A stretch of DNA of 64,000 nt from assembly GCA_900466605.1 (NCBI GenBank), contig UBMU01000002.1:186001-250000 (forward strand), given 5' to 3'. This document shows, one piece after another, positions 34,916 through 43,820 of the stretch. The stretch comes from Hyphomicrobiales bacterium (GTDB lineage: Bacteria; Pseudomonadota; Alphaproteobacteria; Rhizobiales; Rhizobiaceae). How positions within the stretch are numbered: position 1 is the stretch's first letter; each line of letters begins with the position of its first letter. The position numbers were made by a program, and so were the translations under genes. A model generated the notes under the pieces. The model saw nothing but the letters and a program-made list of their open reading frames with translations. It ran no database searches and was not told the origin of the DNA.

Positions 34916-35485
34916 TTAGTCCTTTGCGCGCTCAACGTAGGAATTATCTTCCGTGGCAATAACCACGCGCGTGCCGGCATTGATATGCGGCGGCACCATG
35001 GTGCGCACGCCGTTTGCCAACATTGCCGGCTTGTAGGACGACGAAGCCGTCTGGCCCTTAACGACCGGTTCGGTTTCCGTAATTTCGAGGGTCACATGGC
35101 GCGGCAGTTCGAGCGCGAGCGGAACGCCCTCATGAATCGACAGAATACAGGTCATGCCTTCCTGTAGATAAGCCTTCTGATCGCCCATCGTTTCATCGTT
35201 CACGACTACCTGGTCGTAGGTCGCCGGGTTCATGAAGTGGAAGCCTTCACCATCTTCGTAGAGATACTGGAAGTTCACATCTTCAACGAAGGCGCGCTCG
35301 ACTTGCTCGGTCGTGCGCCAGCGCTCGGAAACCTTGACGCCATCGACGATACGACGCATGTCGACCTGGGTAACCGGCGTGCCCTTGCCAGGATGAAAGT
35401 TCTGGGCAGTCAGAACGACGTAGAGCTTGCCATCCACATCGAGAACGTTGCCCTTGCGGACGGAAGAGGCGATGACCTTGACCAT
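34916..35485 (-). CDS. efp: Translation elongation factor P
   Basis: A 189-residue EF-P that relieves ribosome stalling at polyproline. Domain I holds the modification loop [10 protein letters not shown] with Lys34 exactly at the position that is beta-lysylated in the EpmA/EpmB system. Domains II and III follow with [22 protein letters not shown] and the C-terminal [19 protein letters not shown] and [20 protein letters not shown]. Start ATG at 35485 after AAGGAAG. epmA and epmB lie divergently upstream, 149 bases away, giving a complete substrate-plus-modifier locus; epmC is not seen. Confidence 0.97.
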
Positions 35486-35634
35486 TAAGACTTCCTTGTA
35501 ACTCGGCTTTTGGCGTCGTAGAGGACTGTCGATACAGCCTTGGAGACGCGATTGATTGTTCTTTGGGGGCGCAACTAACCTAAAATCCGGCAAATAGCCA
35601 GCCCTAGCGTTGGACGACCGGTCAGGACGAACTC

Positions 35635-36702
35635 ATGAATTCCTCGATCGCCAAAGTATCGCCGTGGTGGACGCCGAGCGTGCATTTGGATCGGCGCCCA
35701 TTCCTGATTGGGCGCAATGCGATCCAGTCTGCGTTGCGCGGCTATTTCCTGAGTGAGGACTTTCTGGAAGTCGACACCGCAACTCTGCAGGTGTCGCCGG
35801 GCAACGAGGCGCATCTTCACGCCTTTGCCACCGAGGCATTGACGACGGACGGCCAGACGGCGCCGCCGCTATACCTGCATACTTCGCCCGAGTTCGCCTG
35901 CAAGAAACTGCTTTCGGCCGGAGAGCAGCGCATTGCCTGCTTTGCGCACGTCTATCGCAATCGCGAGCGCGGACCCTTGCATCACCCGGAATTCACAATG
36001 CTCGAATGGTATCGTGTGGGTGAAAGCTATGAGAGTCTGATGATGGATTGCGTTCGCATTCTGGCGCTTGCCGCAGAAACGACGAAGACAGTGCAGTTCA
36101 CTTATAAAGGCAGGGACTGCGACCCGTTTGCGGGGCCGGACCGGATAAGCGTTGCCGCGGCTTTCGAACGCTATGCCGGCATCGATCTTCTGGCATCCGT
36201 TTCCGTCGATGGCGCGACGGATCGGGCGCATCTCGCTGATCAGGTAAAGAGGAACGGAATGCGTGTTGCTGACGATGACGGCTGGGCGGATCTGTTTAGC
36301 CGCGTGCTCGTTGAAAAAGTCGAACCTCATTTGGGTTTCAACCAAGTGACCATTCTTGACGAGTACCCTGTTTCGGAAGCTGCCTTGGCGCGTCCCTCTG
36401 CGCGTGATCCCCGTGTTGCGGAGCGTTTCGAGGTCTATGCTTGCGGGGTCGAGCTCGCGAATGGCTTTGGCGAGCTTACCAATCCGGCCGAACAGCGTCG
36501 TCGCTTCGAGATCGAGATGTCCGAAAAGGCTCGCATCTACGGCGAACGCTATCCGCTCGATGAGGATTTTCTGGACGCGCTTGCTATCATGCCCGAGGCG
36601 AGCGGCATCGCTCTTGGTTTCGATCGGCTGGTCATGCTGGCAACCGGGGCGTCGCGGATCGATCAGGTGATGTGGGCGCCGGTCGCGGAGTACGGCAGAT
36701 GA
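35635..36702 (+). CDS. epmA: EF-P beta-lysine ligase (GenX/PoxA)
   Basis: A 355-residue class-II lysyl-tRNA synthetase-like catalytic domain without the anticodon-binding domain. Motif 2 is CFAHVYRNRERGPLHHPEFTMLEWY (about residues 101-125, quoted in part) and motif 3 is GIALGFDRLVMLATG near the C-terminus. It attaches beta-lysine to Lys34 of EF-P instead of a tRNA. epmB overlaps its stop by four bases (ATGA) and efp is divergent next door, so the assignment is well supported by context. Confidence 0.95.
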   Translation: MNSSIAKVSPWWTPSVHLDRRPFLIGRNAIQSALRGYFLSEDFLEVDTATLQVSPGNEAHLHAFATEALTTDGQTAPPLYLHTSPEFACKKLLSAGEQRIACFAHVYRNRERGPLHHPEFTMLEWYRVGESYESLMMDCVRILALAAETTKTVQFTYKGRDCDPFAGPDRISVAAAFERYAGIDLLASVSVDGATDRAHLADQVKRNGMRVADDDGWADLFSRVLVEKVEPHLGFNQVTILDEYPVSEAALARPSARDPRVAERFEVYACGVELANGFGELTNPAEQRRRFEIEMSEKARIYGERYPLDEDFLDALAIMPEASGIALGFDRLVMLATGASRIDQVMWAPVAEYGR

Positions 36703-37754
36703 ACAGTATCGGGCCGATCAAGACCGTCGAGGGACTGGAACGCGCTGGGCTGCTCGGCCAGAGAGATCGGGAGGCGTTGGCTGATGTCGCCGCGCGCTAT
36801 GCTATTGCGCTCACTCCAACCGTCACAGGTCTGATCGATAGGGCAGATGATGTGGACCCGATCGCCCGGCAATTCGTTCCCGACGCGGCCGAGCTTGTCA
36901 CAGCGCCCGAAGAGCGCGCGGATCCGATCGGCGACGAAGCCCATAGCCCCGTGCCGGGGATCGTTCATCGCTATCCTGACCGGGTGCTGTTGAAGGCTGT
37001 GCATGTATGCCCGGTCTACTGTCGGTTCTGCTTTCGCCGCGAGATGGTTGGCCCGCAGGGCTTGGGCACCCTGGACCCCAAGGCAATGTCGGCAGCTTTT
37101 GCCTACATCCGCGATCGGAAGGAAATCTGGGAAGTGATCCTGACGGGCGGCGATCCGCTCGTGTTGTCTCCGCGACGGTTGGAAGAAATCCTTCGCGAAC
37201 TGGCATCGATCGATCACGTGAAGATCGTCCGGTTTCATACTCGCATTCCCGTGGTTGATCCGTCAAAGGTCGATGCGGCCCTCATTGCGGCCCTGAAGGC
37301 AAGCGGCAAAACTGTCTATGTGGCGTTGCACGCCAATCATCCGCGCGAACTAAGCGAGGAAGCGCGGGCTGCCTGCGCCCGCCTGATTGATGCCGGAATC
37401 GTCATGGTCAGCCAATCGGTGCTCTTGAAGGGCGTCAATGATGATCCGGCGGTGCTCGCAGAGTTGATGAGGGCTTTTGTCGAGACGCGTGTGAAGCCTT
37501 ACTACCTCCACCATCCGGATCTTGCGCCTGGAACGAGTCATTTTCGGCTGACCATCGAGGAGGGACAAAAAATAGTCGCCGCCTTGCACGGCCGGATTTC
37601 GGGTCTGTGCCAGCCCACCTACATACTCGATATACCCGGCGGCTACGGCAAGGCGGTTATCGGTGAACAGGCGATCAGGGAGATCGGCGAGGGCTGTTAC
37701 TCCGTTTCGGACTATCACGGCGCCGAGCACCAGTATCCGCCGCCCGGCTCGTGA
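36699..37754 (+). CDS. epmB: EF-P (R)-beta-lysine synthesis: lysine 2,3-aminomutase-like EpmB
   Basis: A 351-residue radical-SAM, PLP-dependent enzyme that converts lysine to beta-lysine for EF-P modification. The cluster motif CPVYCRFC gives Cys104, Cys108 and Cys111. ILTGGDPLVLS and the C-terminal YYLHHPDLAPGTSHFR match the KamA/EpmB family, and the PLP lysine is expected in the last 40 residues. The ATG at 36699 overlaps the epmA stop (ATGA), so the pair is translationally coupled. Confidence 0.95.
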   Translation: MNSIGPIKTVEGLERAGLLGQRDREALADVAARYAIALTPTVTGLIDRADDVDPIARQFVPDAAELVTAPEERADPIGDEAHSPVPGIVHRYPDRVLLKAVHVCPVYCRFCFRREMVGPQGLGTLDPKAMSAAFAYIRDRKEIWEVILTGGDPLVLSPRRLEEILRELASIDHVKIVRFHTRIPVVDPSKVDAALIAALKASGKTVYVALHANHPRELSEEARAACARLIDAGIVMVSQSVLLKGVNDDPAVLAELMRAFVETRVKPYYLHHPDLAPGTSHFRLTIEEGQKIVAALHGRISGLCQPTYILDIPGGYGKAVIGEQAIREIGEGCYSVSDYHGAEHQYPPPGS

Positions 37755-38011
37755 AAAGGGAAGGGCAAGTGTTGTTCTTGGACAATCTGTCGCAATATCC
37801 TTCTTGCGGCGCGAGAATGCAAATAACAGCAAGACCTTGAAATATAATATAAGTTCCGTTTCCTTCCGTTTCTTTCATAAGAATTTTAGCAGAGAAGCTT
37901 AGCTGGATTTAACTACGTCATTTAGCAGAATTTTGTCTTTTCCAGACTACGCCTATCCCGAGAACAAGGCGGTTTCGCCACTCGAGATATGATCATCTTG
38001 GAGAAGTCATC
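37755..38011 (+). promoter_or_regulatory. AT-rich leader of the carrier-protein operon with direct repeats
   Basis: This 257-base interval is clearly richer in A+T than its neighbours. It contains TTCCGTTTC twice at a 10-base period (37854-37862 and 37864-37872) and TTTAGCAGA twice (37885-37893 and 37921-37929). AATATAATATAAG at about 37839-37853 is a possible -10 region. It presumably holds the operon promoter. A GGAG ribosome site precedes the ACP start. Confidence 0.4.
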
Positions 38012-38263
38012 ATGAATACTACAATCCGTGAACTGCTGGCTAAATTCGGAAAGCTTCCCGTCTCTGTCGATCAGGTTGCCGACGATGCCGACCTCTATGC
38101 TGTCGGTCTGTCGTCCTTCGCTTCGGTGCAGCTTATGCTTGGCATCGAAGAAGCTTTTGACATCGAATTTCCTGACAATCTCTTGAATCGCAAGTCTTTC
38201 GCCAGCATCGCGGCGATCGCGAAGACTGTGGACCAGATCAAAGATAGTCGGAAGGTCGCCTAA
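38012..38263 (+). CDS. Stand-alone acyl/aminoacyl carrier protein
   Basis: An 83-residue acidic ACP-like protein. The phosphopantetheine site is DLYAVGLSSFASVQ, with Ser35 as the likely attachment serine. Helices I (residues 3-14), II (35-50) and IV (62-78) are in the expected places. It is not the housekeeping AcpP: the pattern resembles the dedicated carrier proteins that accompany class-II synthetase-like amino acid:CP ligases. The ATG follows GGAG. The dehydrogenase gene begins directly after its stop, and the ligase is the third gene, so I infer that it carries an activated amino acid rather than a fatty acid. Confidence 0.9.
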   Translation: MNTTIRELLAKFGKLPVSVDQVADDADLYAVGLSSFASVQLMLGIEEAFDIEFPDNLLNRKSFASIAAIAKTVDQIKDSRKVA

Positions 38264-39445
38264 ATGAACTTTCCGGTCAAAATCGCTGAAGAGGATCTTG
38301 CCGCCAGGGTCGCCCGCGTATCCGCGATCGCGGCCAGGCATGCCGACTCCGTCGATTTTGATGGGAGGTTCCCCCACGAAGCCGTGGATGCAATGAAGGC
38401 CGAGCGGTTGCTTGGAATACAGATCCCACGCCACTTCGGCGGTGAAGGTGCGGCCATCGCGCAGATTGCTGAGCTATGCTCGATGCTTGGGCAGGCGTGT
38501 TCCGCGGCTGCCATGGTTTTCGCCATGCATCACATCAAGCTTTGCAGTCTTGTCGAGCACGGAGCCGAGAGCGAATGGCATCGGGCGTTCATGCAGCGTG
38601 TGGCGACCGAGCAATTGCTGATTGGATCGGCGACGACCGAAGGCGGCATCGGCGGCAATCTCCGGAATAGCATCTGCGCGGTCGAGGTGGACGGCGACAC
38701 CTGCCGTCTGGAGAAAGACGCGACTGTCATATCCTACGGCTCCTACGCCGATGCAATCATGATCACGTCGCGCGCCCACGCAAATGCGGCCCCCTCCGAC
38801 CAGGTTCTGACCGTTTTTGTCAAGGAGCAGTACGCGCTGGAAAAAACGCACGCGTGGAACACGCTTGGTATGCGCGGTACGTGTTCAGATGGCTTCCTCT
38901 TCAAGGGTGAAGCGCCCGCCGTGCAAATTCTGCCCAAGCCCTTCGCAGAGATCGCCGCTCAATCGATGCTGGCATCGTCACACCTCCTCTGGAGCGGCGT
39001 GTGGTACGGTATCGCCGTCGATGCCGTGAGTCGTGCGCAGGCGTTCGTGCGCGCTGCCGCACGCAAGTCACCCGGGGCGCCGCCGCCCGGAGCTCTGCGA
39101 CTGGCCGAGGTGTCAAACCTGCTGCAGATGGTTCGCTCGAACGTCGTCGCTGGTCTGAAGGCATACGAGGATGCCAAGAGCGACGCAGACAAGCTTTCCT
39201 CCATGGGCTTTGCCGTCACGATGAACAACGTGAAGATAGCCTCGTCGGAAACAATTCTCGAAATCGTCAATCACGTGATGCTGATTTGCGGGATCATGGG
39301 CTATAAGAACGGCACGCCATTCAGCGTCGGCCGCCATCTGCGCGATGCCCACTCCGCACAACTCATGATCTCGAATGACCGCATCCTCGGCAACACGTCG
39401 AGCATGCTTCTTGTCCACAAGCAGGACACTAGCCTACTGGGGTGA
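38264..39445 (+). CDS. Acyl-CoA dehydrogenase-fold flavoprotein acting on the carrier protein (inferred)
   Basis: A 393-residue acyl-CoA dehydrogenase-fold protein with an N-terminal helical domain, a middle beta domain ([17 protein letters not shown], about residues 120-136; [13 protein letters not shown], about 202-214) and a C-terminal four-helix part. The usual C-terminal catalytic glutamate, found as Y-E-G-T in classical enzymes, is not evident: the corresponding stretch reads [13 protein letters not shown]. The chemistry may thus differ from alpha,beta-desaturation, as in ACAD-fold monooxygenases, or use another base. The gene starts at the base after the ACP stop, so its substrate is probably thioester-bound to that ACP; this is inference. 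Confidence 0.82.
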
Positions 39446-39449
39446 CGAC

Positions 39450-40358
39450 ATGGACGTGCAGACAACGTTTCTGGACAGGCTCTTTGACTCGGGCCTTCTG
39501 ATCGATACGGGCGTTGACGGCCTTTATGGGCGCAGCGGACAATTCGAAGAGGTGATTGCGGCCTTCGAGCGGCTTATCGACAAGTTCGGTGGTGCCGACG
39601 GTGCTGAAGCGATGCGCTTTCCGCCAGGCATGAACCGCGCCTTCTTCGAGAAGAGCGGTTACATGAAGAGCTTCCCGCAGCTCGCCGGTACCGTTCACAG
39701 TTTCTGCGGCAGTGAACTCGACCACATCAATCTCCTTCAGTGCATGGAGGTGGGCGATGACTGGACGAAGGATCAGCAGGCAACCGACATCGTGCTGACG
39801 CCGGCGGCATGCTATCCGCTCTATCCGACGGTTGCCCGCCGCGGCAAACTGCCGATGAGAGGCGGTCTCTTCGATCTTCAGTCCTACTGCTTCCGCCACG
39901 AGCCTTCGCAGGATCCCGCGCGCCAGCAGCTCTTCCGCATGCGCGAATACGTTTGCATGGGTACGGAACAGCACGTCACGGATTTTCGTCAACGCTGGAT
40001 GGACCGCGGCGTCGAAATGATGGAGGCCGTTGGACTCGATGTTACAATCGATGTGGCCAACGATCCGTTCTTCGGCCGCGCCGGCAAAATGCTGGCCAAC
40101 AATCAGCGCGATCAGAACCTGAAGTTCGAGTTGCTCATACCCATCACCTCGGTTGCAAACCCGACGGCCTGCATGAGTTTCAACTATCATCAGGACGCGT
40201 TCGGCACGAAATGGGACCTCTATCTCGAAGACGGCAGTGTTGCGCATACGGCCTGCGTCGGCTTTGGGCTCGAACGGATCGCGCTCGCCCTGTTCCACCA
40301 CCACGGGCTTGAGGTGGAGCATTGGCCCTCCAAGGTGCGTGAAGCACTGTGGGGCTGA
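39450..40358 (+). CDS. Amino acid:[carrier protein] ligase, class-II synthetase homolog
   Basis: A 302-residue protein homologous to the catalytic core of atypical archaeal seryl-tRNA synthetase but lacking a tRNA-binding domain. Motif 2 lies in [20 protein letters not shown] and motif 3 in [16 protein letters not shown]. The zinc ligands of the family (Cys131, Glu176, Cys279 in the Bradyrhizobium enzyme) correspond exactly to Cys121, Glu166 and Cys269 here, a constant offset of ten. Family members load glycine or another small amino acid onto the phosphopantetheine of a small carrier protein encoded nearby. The ATG at 39450 lies four bases after the dehydrogenase stop. The amino acid used cannot be read with certainty. 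Confidence 0.93.
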
Positions 40359-40366
40359 ATGGATCC

Positions 40367-41329
40367 ATGAATGCCGTCTTCCCGCGGCTGCACACGGATG
40401 GCTATCAGCCACATGCGCTACACTCCAGCGAGCGCATGTGGCCGGAAACCAATTGCTACGTCGACCTCTGGATCGAAGTGTTGAACGCTGTTGGAGCCGC
40501 GCCGGAGGCGATGCTTGGCTTCACGCTCACGCAGGACTTCGAGGGCGATCAATTCACCTTCTTCAAGGTGCCACTCGAGGATCTTGAGGCACTCTACGAC
40601 GTCCGTGTCACCGAGCTCGCCATCTTCGACCATGTCGAGCGACACATCGAAGTGCAGATTGCACGCGGGCGTCTCTGCCTGATCGAGATGGATTCCTTCT
40701 ATATGCCCGATACGCAGGGCACTGCCTACCGGACCGAGCATGGCAAGACCACTGTGGCAATCAACCGGCTCGACCTTGCCGGAAAGCGTATCGAGTATTT
40801 TCACAACGGCGGTTACTTCAAACTCGAGGGCGAAGATTTCGACGGGTTGTTCCAGCTTCATCTGAGGCCAGAAGATCCGTTGTTCCTTCCATACGCGGAG
40901 TTTGCGAAATTCCCCGTTCGCATCCCGGACGTTGTGCATGTCAGTACTACGGCACGCAAACTTCTCGACTTTCATTTCGGTCGCCGGCCCGTCTCGAACC
41001 CTATTCGTGCCTTCGCCGAAGTTTTTCCACTGCAGGTGGAAGGAGTGGCAGAGCGACCTTTCGGTTTCTTTCACAAGTATGCGTTCAACACGCTGCGCCA
41101 ATTCGGTGCCAATTTTGAACTCGCCGGCGATCATCTGGCCTGGCTCTCCGCCAACGAATTCTCGACCGCCATCGATAACGCGCGTCGAATTTCCGAAGTC
41201 GCGAAGTCGGTGCAGTTCCAGCTCGCCCGGGCGGTCACTCGGAAGAAATACGATCCGCTGCGTACGGCGCTTGATCCGGCAGCCGATGCGTGGGATTCCA
41301 TGATGGCTTCGCTCAAGGAGCGCTTGTGA
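40367..41329 (+). CDS. DUF1839 family protein
   Basis: A 320-residue protein of the DUF1839 family, which I associate with amino acid:CP ligase operons. Near the N-terminus the segment ETNCYVDLWIEVLNAVG (Cys30) resembles the cysteine-plus-helix start of papain/BtrH-like acyl-acceptor enzymes. A histidine in YRTEHGKTTVAINRLD and an aspartate or glutamate after FHNGGYFKLEGEDF follow. That would fit a transferase that takes the amino acid from the ACP, but this is only pattern-based inference. Start at the ATG at 40367, eight bases after the ligase stop. Confidence 0.8.
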   Translation: MNAVFPRLHTDGYQPHALHSSERMWPETNCYVDLWIEVLNAVGAAPEAMLGFTLTQDFEGDQFTFFKVPLEDLEALYDVRVTELAIFDHVERHIEVQIARGRLCLIEMDSFYMPDTQGTAYRTEHGKTTVAINRLDLAGKRIEYFHNGGYFKLEGEDFDGLFQLHLRPEDPLFLPYAEFAKFPVRIPDVVHVSTTARKLLDFHFGRRPVSNPIRAFAEVFPLQVEGVAERPFGFFHKYAFNTLRQFGANFELAGDHLAWLSANEFSTAIDNARRISEVAKSVQFQLARAVTRKKYDPLRTALDPAADAWDSMMASLKERL

Positions 41330-41345
41330 GGCCGGGAGTCTGAGG

Positions 41346-43820
41346 ATGCGGGGACGGTTGGCGAGTGTCGGGGCAGAGGAAACTCTGCTCGACGAGGGTT
41401 GGAACTTGGTTCTGACGGAGCCGGACGCTTGCGCAACCCCTCATGACATTCCCTTGTCTGCCCAGTTCATCGCTGCCGAAGTGCCTGGAACCGTTGCCGC
41501 AGCGTTGGAAAAGGTTGGGCGCTTTGATCGTGACAATCCTGAGCCGCTCGATACCCGCGACGCATGGTATATCTGCCGGCTCTTTGACGTACAGCCAGGC
41601 GACGCGATCCTGCGCTTCGAGGGCTTGGCGACACTGTGCCATGTCTTCCTCAATGGTCAGGAAATCCTGTCATCGGAAAGCATGTTCACCATGCATGAGA
41701 TACCGGTGACGCTCTCCGGCGGCGACGAGTTGGCACTTTGCTTTCGAGCCCTTGCGCCGAGACTGGCCGAACCGGGTCCACGCGCCCGATGGCGGGCGCA
41801 GATGATCACGCCGCAAGGCTTGAAGAACGTTCGCACGACGCTGCTTGGGCGGATGCCGGGTTGGTGCCCTGAAATTCATGCGGTCGGGCCTTGGCGTCCC
41901 ATCACGCTCGTGCGCCGCGATGTCGTTTCGATCGACAATGTCACTGTTCGTGCGATGCTTGAGGCGGATGGCACCGGACGGTTGAGCGTTTCGCTTCACA
42001 CGGATGTCGACAATCCCGATTTGATGCTTCGTTGTGGAGAGATCGAGCAGGTCTTCGAGAAAATTGGAGACAGCCACTACTCGGCGATTTTGAAGCTGAA
42101 GGACGTCGACCTCTGGTGGCCGCACACGCACGGGGTGCCTCACCTCCATGACTACTCGATCGTCGTTGATGGCGTTGCGCATCACGCCGGTCGAACCGGC
42201 TTTCGGCGGATCGACGTTGACCGTGGAGCTCAGGGCAACGATTTTGCGCTGTTGGTCAACGGTGAGCGCGTCTTTTGCCGTGGTGCGGTCTGGACAACAG
42301 CCGATATTGTTCGGCTGCCGGGTGATAAGGCGGACTATGAGCCGTTCTTGCGCCTCGCTGCCGAGGCGGGCATGAACATGATCCGCATCGGCGGGACGAT
42401 GGCCTACGAGACGCCGGAGTTCTTTCATCTCTGCGACGAGCTCGGACTGCTTGTCTGGCAGGATTTCATGTTCGCCAATTTCGACTATCCGAAGAACGAC
42501 AAGGCTCTTACCGCGCATGTGCACGCGGAGGTCGAGGAATTCCTGCACACCGTCCAGGGATGCCCGTCGCTTGCAGTTCTGTGCGGTGGGAGCGAGATCT
42601 ACCAGCAAGCGGCGATGCTTGGGTTGCCGCGTGAATATTGGGCCGGTCCGATCACCGAAGAGATTATTCCGGCGATCGCGAGCCGCGTAAGACCTGATGT
42701 ACCTTATGCAGTCAATTCCCCGTCGGGCGGCGCCATGCCGTTTTCGCCGAGCGCGGGGGTTACGCACTACTACGGTGTGGGCGCCTATATGCGGCCGCTT
42801 GACGACGCTCGTCGAGCGAAGGTTCGCTTCGCGGCCGAGAGCCTGGCGTTTGCCAATGTGCCACAGCAGCGAACGCTGCAGCGCCACCTCGATGTACCGC
42901 CCGTCCATAGCCCGCTATGGAAATCGCGGGTGCCCCGCGATCGCGGTGCATCCTGGGACTTTGAGGATGTGCGGGATTTCTATCTGGCAGAGCTCTATCG
43001 CGAGGATCCGGCGCAGCTTCGTCGTGGTGATCGCGAGCGGTACCTTGATCTTTCCCGCGTCGTCACCGGCGAAGTCGCGGAGGCGACCTTCGCTGAATGG
43101 CGCAGCAATGGATCGACGTGCAACGGTGCATTGGTTTGGACCTTACAGGATCTTATGCCAGGTGCCGGTTGGGGGGTGATCGATTCGACCGGCGAGCCGA
43201 AGCCGGTCTGGTTTGCTCTGCGCCGGGCTTTCCGGCCGGTGCAGGTGGTAGTGACCGACGAGGGCACGAATGGCCTCGACGTTCACGTGCTGAATGAAAC
43301 CGAGCACACGCTCCAGCTTGATCTCGAGCTGGTGTGCCTGCGGCACGGCAAGCAGCACGCCGTCAGCGGCGGTCGCATTCTGACTTTGGCGCCGAGGAGC
43401 CGCGATACGTTTGCCGCGACCGATCTGTTTGGCGCATTCTTCGACACGACCTACGCCTTTCGTTTCGGCCCGCCTTCTCACGACGTTACCGTCGCTCGCC
43501 TGCGCCTGCCGGATGGTGGTCCTGTGGTCGCCGACGCCTTCCATTTCCCCCTAGGGCGCTCCAAGGCCTTTTACGATGCCGAAATCCAGGTGGCTTTGAC
43601 GCAACAGGACGCTGCGTGGGTGCTTGATCTCTCAGCCGACAGGTTCGCGCAGTCGGTCCACGTCAGCGTCGATGGCTATCGGCCGGATGATGATTGGTTT
43701 CATCTCGCTCCTGGCGCAGCCAAGCGCGTCAGGCTGCTTCCGATAGCCGGGCAAGCGGATGGGGAAACGCCTTCCGGTGAGATAACAAGCCTCGGCGGCA
43801 CGCGTGCGCTTTCATTCTGA
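41346..43820 (+). CDS. Glycoside hydrolase family 2-like (beta-mannosidase-like) protein
   Basis: An 824-residue protein with the GH2 layout: sugar-binding domain (DAWYICRLFDV, FEGLATLCHVFLNGQ, about residues 70-105), immunoglobulin-like domain, TIM barrel and C-terminal beta domains. In the barrel, MNMIRIGGTMAYE and LVWQDFMFANFDYP match beta-mannosidases. The acid/base position is Glu417 in CGGSEIYQQ (usually CGNNE) and the nucleophile is likely Glu498 in FAAESLAF. No signal peptide, so it appears cytosolic. It is the last gene of the carrier-protein operon, which is unusual company for a glycosidase and hints that the final product contains a sugar. Substrate unknown. Confidence 0.85.
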   Translation: MRGRLASVGAEETLLDEGWNLVLTEPDACATPHDIPLSAQFIAAEVPGTVAAALEKVGRFDRDNPEPLDTRDAWYICRLFDVQPGDAILRFEGLATLCHVFLNGQEILSSESMFTMHEIPVTLSGGDELALCFRALAPRLAEPGPRARWRAQMITPQGLKNVRTTLLGRMPGWCPEIHAVGPWRPITLVRRDVVSIDNVTVRAMLEADGTGRLSVSLHTDVDNPDLMLRCGEIEQVFEKIGDSHYSAILKLKDVDLWWPHTHGVPHLHDYSIVVDGVAHHAGRTGFRRIDVDRGAQGNDFALLVNGERVFCRGAVWTTADIVRLPGDKADYEPFLRLAAEAGMNMIRIGGTMAYETPEFFHLCDELGLLVWQDFMFANFDYPKNDKALTAHVHAEVEEFLHTVQGCPSLAVLCGGSEIYQQAAMLGLPREYWAGPITEEIIPAIASRVRPDVPYAVNSPSGGAMPFSPSAGVTHYYGVGAYMRPLDDARRAKVRFAAESLAFANVPQQRTLQRHLDVPPVHSPLWKSRVPRDRGASWDFEDVRDFYLAELYREDPAQLRRGDRERYLDLSRVVTGEVAEATFAEWRSNGSTCNGALVWTLQDLMPGAGWGVIDSTGEPKPVWFALRRAFRPVQVVVTDEGTNGLDVHVLNETEHTLQLDLELVCLRHGKQHAVSGGRILTLAPRSRDTFAATDLFGAFFDTTYAFRFGPPSHDVTVARLRLPDGGPVVADAFHFPLGRSKAFYDAEIQVALTQQDAAWVLDLSADRFAQSVHVSVDGYRPDDDWFHLAPGAAKRVRLLPIAGQADGETPSGEITSLGGTRALSF

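Follow-up and report, generated by a model that had tools for sequence, protein, structure and literature searches.

What does a bacterium do with an amino acid that an aminoacyl-tRNA synthetase (aaRS)-like ligase has loaded onto a carrier protein? The question is raised by an operon in a 64,000-nucleotide stretch of a Hyphomicrobiales bacterium genome (contig UBMU01000002.1 of GCA_900466605.1, positions 186,001 to 250,000; hereafter the window), in which genes for an acyl carrier protein (ACP), a flavoprotein of the acyl-CoA dehydrogenase (ACAD) fold, such a ligase, a DUF1839 protein and a GH2 glycosidase follow one another. A 2022 paper still calls the role of carrier proteins loaded by these ligases unknown (PMC9437257). 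Our analysis suggests that the operon is probably a cytoplasmic module which decorates the precursor of a Wzx/Wzy-type surface polysaccharide. A polysaccharide-decorating amide synthase is the best explanation because of three pieces of new evidence, namely the fold match of the DUF1839 protein, a sixth partner gene that co-occurs with it exactly, and the catalytic glutamates missing from the flavoprotein. The operon and its parts are as follows.

37755..38011, + strand: A+T-rich leader or promoter region, 41.6% G+C, conserved block 37909-37934
38012..38263, + strand: acyl carrier protein, 83 aa (PF00550, NF005480); proposed phosphopantetheine Ser35 at 38114-38116
38264..39445, + strand: ACAD-fold flavoprotein, 393 aa (PF02771/PF00441); Ile369 (39368-39370) at the position of the medium-chain acyl-CoA dehydrogenase (MCAD) type
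39450..40358, + strand: amino acid:[carrier protein] ligase, 302 aa (NF005479; PDB 4h2w, 3mey)
39810-39812, 39945-39947 and 40254-40256, + strand: ligase zinc ligands Cys121, Glu166 and Cys269 (aligned operon ligases)
40367..41329, + strand: DUF1839 protein, 320 aa, proposed carrier-dependent aminoacyl transferase (PF08893; model, fold matches)
40454-40456, 40751-40753 and 40802-40804, + strand: DUF1839 residues Cys30, Thr129 and His146 (residue conservation)
41346..43820, + strand: GH2 beta-mannosidase-like protein, 824 aa (PF22666; PDB beta-mannosidases)
42594-42596 and 42837-42839, + strand: GH2 catalytic residues Glu417 and Glu498 (alignment)

The five genes all lie on the + strand within 37755..43820, with successive gaps of 0, 4, 8 and 16 bases; these coordinates, the gaps and the five family assignments had been given in an earlier sequence-only reading and were borne out by a check of the open reading frames and by Pfam and NCBIfam. 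The start of the DUF1839 gene was taken as the ATG at 40367; an alternative in-frame GTG at 40349 would overlap the ligase gene.

Is this arrangement peculiar to the window? We compared it with 80 named loci, which are near relatives since they are the best 80 of at least 557 confirmed DUF1839 matches, and with 55 diverse loci from 54 other genomes. The order ACP-ACAD-ligase-DUF1839-GH2 on one strand was found in 78 of the named and 52 of the diverse loci and is therefore not due to chance. Among the exceptions, one gene is absent at a contig end in L069 and L168, the ACP and ACAD genes were not found upstream in L060 (a 6.5-kb contig), L170 has only a second DUF1839 copy at a contig end, and L172 counts as mixed owing to a second DUF1839 copy with a higher score than the one in the operon. 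The order is kept across nine family labels. DUF1839 is present in 49/297 genomes of the order and in 16/398 of a phylum sample that overlaps the order sample; the source genome has a single DUF1839 gene and a single NF005479-family ligase, and its closest organism-named DUF1839 relatives are from Rhizobium, including R. grahamii. Six plasmid records were examined among 59 with a DUF1839 match, and five (two Azospirillum, Mycetohabitans, Phyllobacterium and Rhizobium rhizoryzae) show the same gene order. In the sixth, from R. leguminosarum (NZ_CP121639.1, L178), ACP-ACAD-ligase-DUF1839 is followed by an IS5-family transposase and GH2 is unlisted, the gene table being incomplete. The operon is confirmed, its conservation is high, and the neighbourhood comparison that the sequence-only reading had proposed finds its genes to be regular rather than rare neighbours.

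Which group does the ligase put on the ACP? The ligase scores 519 bits against NF005479 (cut-off 357), aligns with the Bll0957 chains and matches the PDB entries 4h2w (E 8.5e-98) and 3mey (E 1.2e-92); within its 302 residues Pfam matched only the class II core, a tRNA-binding domain being absent. The zinc ligands Cys121, Glu166 and Cys269, found at the positions where they had been read, are retained in 124/124 aligned operon ligases, and Ser35 of the ACP in 115/115. The nearest solved chains to the ACP are 4h2w_C and 2jq4 (Atu2571), so that ligase and ACP both align with chains of the complex 4h2w. The Bll0957 and Atu2573 ligases have been studied as a pair with their carrier proteins; they share with the window the family (above cut-off), the zinc ligands and an ACP partner in the operon, whereas here ligase and ACP belong to a larger set of six genes. 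Loading of an amino acid onto the ACP, which the sequence-only reading took as solid, is supported by family membership, the zinc ligands and Ser35, as far as sequence can indicate. Such loading is known for relatives of the ligase, and a table lists Gly, Ala and Ser as the amino acids (PMC9437257). In a Bradyrhizobium diazoefficiens phaR mutant under microaerobic conditions, a table gives a fold change of 3.0 each for bll0957 (ligase) and bll0958 (ACAD) (PMC10888616).

What could take the group from the ACP? The DUF1839 protein matches PF08893 with 434 bits (cut-off 22.5), and its predicted model consists of a papain-like N-terminal part and a helical C-terminal part, as in the CcbD/LmbD fold. 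A fold search returned whole-length matches to CcbD, AziU3 and CtaG at 11-14% identity, with which the predicted structure appears to share an N-terminal cysteine and a carrier-bound donor; when the DUF1839 profile was searched against PDB sequences, no match was significant (best E 0.17). The partner of CcbD/LmbD is a non-ribosomal peptide synthetase (NRPS) A-domain, whereas here the partner ligase is aaRS-like. Cys30 is conserved and begins helix 30-41 of the model, with Thr129 and His146 as its apparent partners. PMC10318531 assigns DUF1839 to the papain-like fold, proposes a Cys-(Thr/Ser)-His set, guesses that the family processes glycans at the cell wall, and gives BtrH as a papain-like ACP:aminoglycoside acyltransferase. 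The three residues appear to fit that set, and BtrH is likened to DUF1839 by description only. The model thus supports the transferring role that the sequence-only reading had assigned to the DUF1839 protein, through a fold shared with carrier-dependent amide synthases. Our literature search, mostly outside subscription journals, met DUF1839 in one paper and found nothing linking it to CcbD, CtaG or AziU3. In two genomes (L171, L172, L170, L040, L041) the in-operon DUF1839 lacks the catalytic Cys and Thr and a second copy has both, possibly a pseudoenzyme pair. At G210:C1:2515620-2516545 DUF1839 was matched as two overlapping pieces, perhaps through a frameshift or sequencing error.

Is the group altered before transfer? 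The flavoprotein was aligned with 13 other ACAD-fold proteins of its own genome, 10 of which carry NCBIfam names in the tree described below. The glutamate of the YEG (MCAD) type is replaced by Ile369 and that of the isovaleryl-CoA dehydrogenase (IVD) type by Ser239. Among 132 operon flavoproteins a glutamate stands at neither aligned position, and Ile369 is found in all 132. With both catalytic glutamates missing, the flavoprotein departs from the usual dehydrogenases, and we rejected the label of ordinary acyl-CoA dehydrogenase. In the tree, seven Glu-bearing rows split (100/99) from six SfnB/DszC-like rows together with ten operon or ligase-linked proteins, the ten on a long branch. The best single-sequence PDB matches are the flavin adenine dinucleotide (FAD)-dependent oxidoreductases 3m9v/4kcf (E about 1e-13), which we take to be KijD3, and, at 1.8e-11, DnmZ; acyl-CoA dehydrogenases tie with them. 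The missing glutamates, the grouping with SfnB/DszC-like rows and the PDB tie with sugar N-oxygenases make oxygenation more likely than α,β-dehydrogenation. The structure model of the flavoprotein was poor (predicted local distance difference test, pLDDT, 71; C-terminus <50) and was left out of the fold search.

The same PDB matches would also suit a somewhat unlikely alternative, which departs from the polysaccharide-decorating explanation in this oxidation step only: the flavoprotein would N-oxygenate an amino sugar, as KijD3/DnmZ, while ligase, ACP and DUF1839 add a plain glycyl or alanyl group. A profile search, however, puts acyl-CoA dehydrogenases first, and the ACAD gene adjoins the ligase gene in 15/15 genomes that have an above-cut-off ligase without DUF1839 and GH2 nearby, from which the loaded ACP is probably the substrate. 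These fifteen genomes of the order (L215-L229) include a group with Bradyrhizobium-sized genomes; an ACP-like gene lies on the other strand in 13 of them, DUF1839 and the full-length tandem hydrolase described below are absent, and an AMP-binding enzyme and an SDR gene are near in several.

Which molecule receives the group? The sequence-only reading had taken the five genes as the set; their order stands, in 78/80 and 52/55 loci, and their completeness does not, as a sixth member exists that is sometimes unlinked. In many loci an α/β hydrolase of about 600 residues follows GH2. Profile matches make it a fusion of exosortase A hydrolase 2, in front, with hydrolase 1, and like the exosortase A-associated genes it is found in polysaccharide loci. 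It differs from them in being fused, in lacking a nucleophile at the elbow position of its first half, in the cysteine of its second half, and in falling below the NCBIfam cut-offs in the five hydrolases scored (at most 128 bits against 168 for TIGR03100 and at most 102 against 203 for TIGR03101). The second half has a G-x-C elbow, Asp527 and His560 in 44/44, with a subsequent Ser-Gly in 43/44. A full-length hydrolase (E 1e-112 or better) occurs in exactly those 49/297 genomes of the order that have DUF1839 (Fisher p 1e-55, kinship ignored); the only additional match at E 1e-25, in G253, is in two separate pieces (1e-43 and 1e-33). The concern over kinship is eased by two mixed genera, one (g2) in which one of seven listed genomes has both genes and the other six neither, and another (g85) in which two of five genomes have both and three neither.

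The hydrolase is unlinked in 12 of these 49, where it lies on another contig or more than 200 kb away, with a contig break possible in some others; in a thirteenth, G246, the contig breaks beside GH2. A Wzc-type gene was found in the stretch read around the unlinked hydrolase in 12/12. In the window's own genome the hydrolase lies on contig C75 beside Wzx, Wzy_C, Wzz, WecG-type, GT2 and GH10 genes, and five genes of this polysaccharide locus are homologous to operon neighbours in L161. A flippase is fused to the N-terminal side of the hydrolase in 38 loci (cluster f12), the whole protein being 1,100 residues long. Of eleven neighbour families, the hydrolase included, one or more lie near the operon in 42/55 diverse and 55/78 named loci (counts which omit L060 and L109, stretches of <9 kb); a Wzx family is near in 4 diverse and 46 named loci. 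The sugar whose involvement had been suspected earlier is, in view of the hydrolase co-occurrence and these loci, supported as a sugar polymer.

A number of observations weigh against a polysaccharide target or the chemistry proposed for it. The eleven families were chosen after inspecting the neighbourhoods, which weakens the control, and none of them occurs in the stretch read in 13/55 diverse and 23/78 named loci. Wzc-type genes are also near 4/15 ligases without DUF1839 (itself a weak control), second hydrolase copies (L305 and L306, two read of five) have no polysaccharide families near them, and the window has no polysaccharide gene beside the operon. In the own-genome polysaccharide locus, where Pfam was run on ten genes plus two more and the others were judged by protein start, we recognised neither an aminotransferase nor a deacetylase nor any other enzyme that makes amino sugars. 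The proposed Cys-Thr-His of DUF1839 differs from the Cys-His-Glu of CcbD, and likeness of fold by itself shows no function. The glycine specificity supposed here is carried over from Atu2573 and Bll0957, whose favoured amino acid is glycine.

Could the product instead be a small secreted glycoside of the lincosamide or butirosin kind, made by coupling the amino acid on the ACP to a free amino sugar, with the polysaccharide loci lying near by coincidence or through shared sugar donors? The closest folds, CcbD, AziU3 and CtaG, all come from small-molecule pathways, and plasmid copies of the operon have no listed glycosyltransferase beside them in an incomplete gene table. We nevertheless consider this unlikely given the exact co-occurrence of the hydrolase, the Wzc-type gene near every unlinked copy, the fusion to a flippase, and a gene order conserved over nine family labels, unlike that of a typical natural-product cluster. 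That the loaded ACP feeds non-ribosomal peptide synthesis with the sugar genes unrelated, as the 2010 discovery paper proposed according to PMC2922099, is very improbable, since condensation and thioesterase domains are absent from the operon, the five-gene order closes with GH2 in 78/80 and 52/55 loci, and Iyer et al. themselves, in PMC2922099, disputed it from the gene context.

What part does the GH2 enzyme play? Its N-terminal domain scores 46 bits against PF22666 (cut-off 27), it aligns with solved beta-mannosidases (best PDB 5n6u, E 2.8e-47), and Glu417 (130/130) and Glu498 (129/130, one gap) match their acid/base and nucleophile. Because both glutamates are retained, the enzyme more likely hydrolyses glycosides than builds them, to judge from the alignment. 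Inspection by eye gave no obvious signal peptide; cytosolic trimming or salvage is our guess at its role.

These parts suggest the following order of events, of which product, acceptor and oxidation are what we infer. By family knowledge, the ligase would adenylate a small amino acid, of which glycine is the likeliest, and load it onto the phosphopantetheine arm of the ACP. The flavoprotein may then modify the ACP-bound aminoacyl group, oxygenation being likelier than ordinary α,β-dehydrogenation. Judging by its fold, DUF1839 would accept the aminoacyl group on Cys30 and pass it to the amino group of a sugar to give an amide, like CcbD in celesticetin synthesis. The acceptor sugar would belong to a lipid-linked repeat unit that is made, flipped and polymerised by the polysaccharide locus; the tandem hydrolase, a Cys-type α/β enzyme whose gene is often part of such a locus, could serve a second acyl transfer or proof-reading, and GH2 may trim or recycle wrong glycosides in the cytosol.

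How much of this had been foreseen? In a note in proof, Iyer et al. (2010) predicted from the neighbourhood of an StRS paralogue that an amide is formed to a cell-surface amino sugar (PMC2922099). That neighbourhood has in common with ours an ACP, a redox enzyme, an Atu2574-type protein, a glycosidase and liposaccharide genes; the note in proof is without the papain/CcbD-type fold, the tandem hydrolase and the missing glutamates. Atu2574 is, on our reading, the DUF1839 gene, judged by its place after the ligase. The interpretation given in the sequence-only reading is partly supported and is largely this published prediction of 2010. With the hydrolase co-occurrence and the CcbD-type fold, the idea can be tested directly on a single, named polysaccharide, by looking there for an aminoacyl group or its oxidised form.

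We advance the complete picture tentatively: a tRNA-free and NRPS-free pathway of six components (aaRS-derived ligase, ACP, flavin monooxygenase-like enzyme, CcbD-like Cys amide synthase, tandem Cys hydrolase and GH2) may place an oxidised glycyl amide on an exported polysaccharide repeat unit, which would be the first physiological role of these ligases, with the same ligase family serving separately in Dlt-like MBOAT envelope systems. If so, a long-orphaned enzyme family would have its first job and aaRS-derived ligases would join the bacterial ways of charging amino acids for envelope decoration, here in plant-associated bacteria, whose attachment and symbiosis depend on their surface sugars.

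Dlt D-alanylation has in common with the operon an amino acid, a carrier protein and transfer, here proposed, to an envelope polymer; its MBOAT acyltransferase is not among the window's five genes by Pfam or NCBIfam. Do any of these ligases work with such an enzyme? The order has six weaker ligase matches below the NF005479 cut-off, of which four loci were read (L230-L233). In all four an MBOAT gene directly precedes the ligase (PF03062 above cut-off) and the MBOAT protein ends in FLYYQF, FVYYQF or FLYYKF, an ending in line with the FXYXXF acyl-shuttle motif that PMC12148441 describes for DltX and for similar MBOAT tails. The DltB model TIGR04091, scored for L233 only, fell below its cut-off. 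A GASQ-motif protein without a Pfam match precedes the MBOAT gene in 3/4, and an ACP-sized gene follows the ligase in 2/4, with PP-binding at the cut-off in L233. Zinc ligands are retained in both of the two ligases aligned to that of the window. From their gene content these loci resemble a Dlt system with an aaRS-like ligase doing the charging in DltA's place; a search mostly outside subscription journals found no literature linking the two. One example, L233:6474-10666, has a PAS histidine kinase and a response regulator with GGDEF-EAL domains beside it. Ten ligase loci outside the order gave no DUF1839, ACAD or GH2 matches; an MBOAT gene is nearby in one (L279) and an ACP-sized gene beside the ligase in several.

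The A+T-rich leader noticed earlier is confirmed at 37755-38011, with 41.6% G+C against 59.5% for the whole window, a value reached by only 0.16% of 257-base windows (step 50). Its block at 37909-37934 has TTAAC, TTAG and AAT invariant in 11 aligned leaders upstream of the ACP gene and is reminiscent of a CtrA half-site. An Rfam search (E<=1) gave no RNA element there, and a scan for sigma-70-like sites gave none.

On the own-genome contig that holds the hydrolase (C75), a YcaO and a TfuA gene lie side by side at L308:14747-16761, a pair of the trifolitoxin type for ribosomally synthesised and post-translationally modified peptides (RiPPs). Immediately upstream of the operon, at 34916-37754 of the window, are genes for elongation factor P (EF-P), EpmA (EF-P lysine aminoacylase) and an EpmB/AblA-like radical SAM protein. 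This group is another aaRS-paralogue system, and it adjoins the operon in many Rhizobium loci too.

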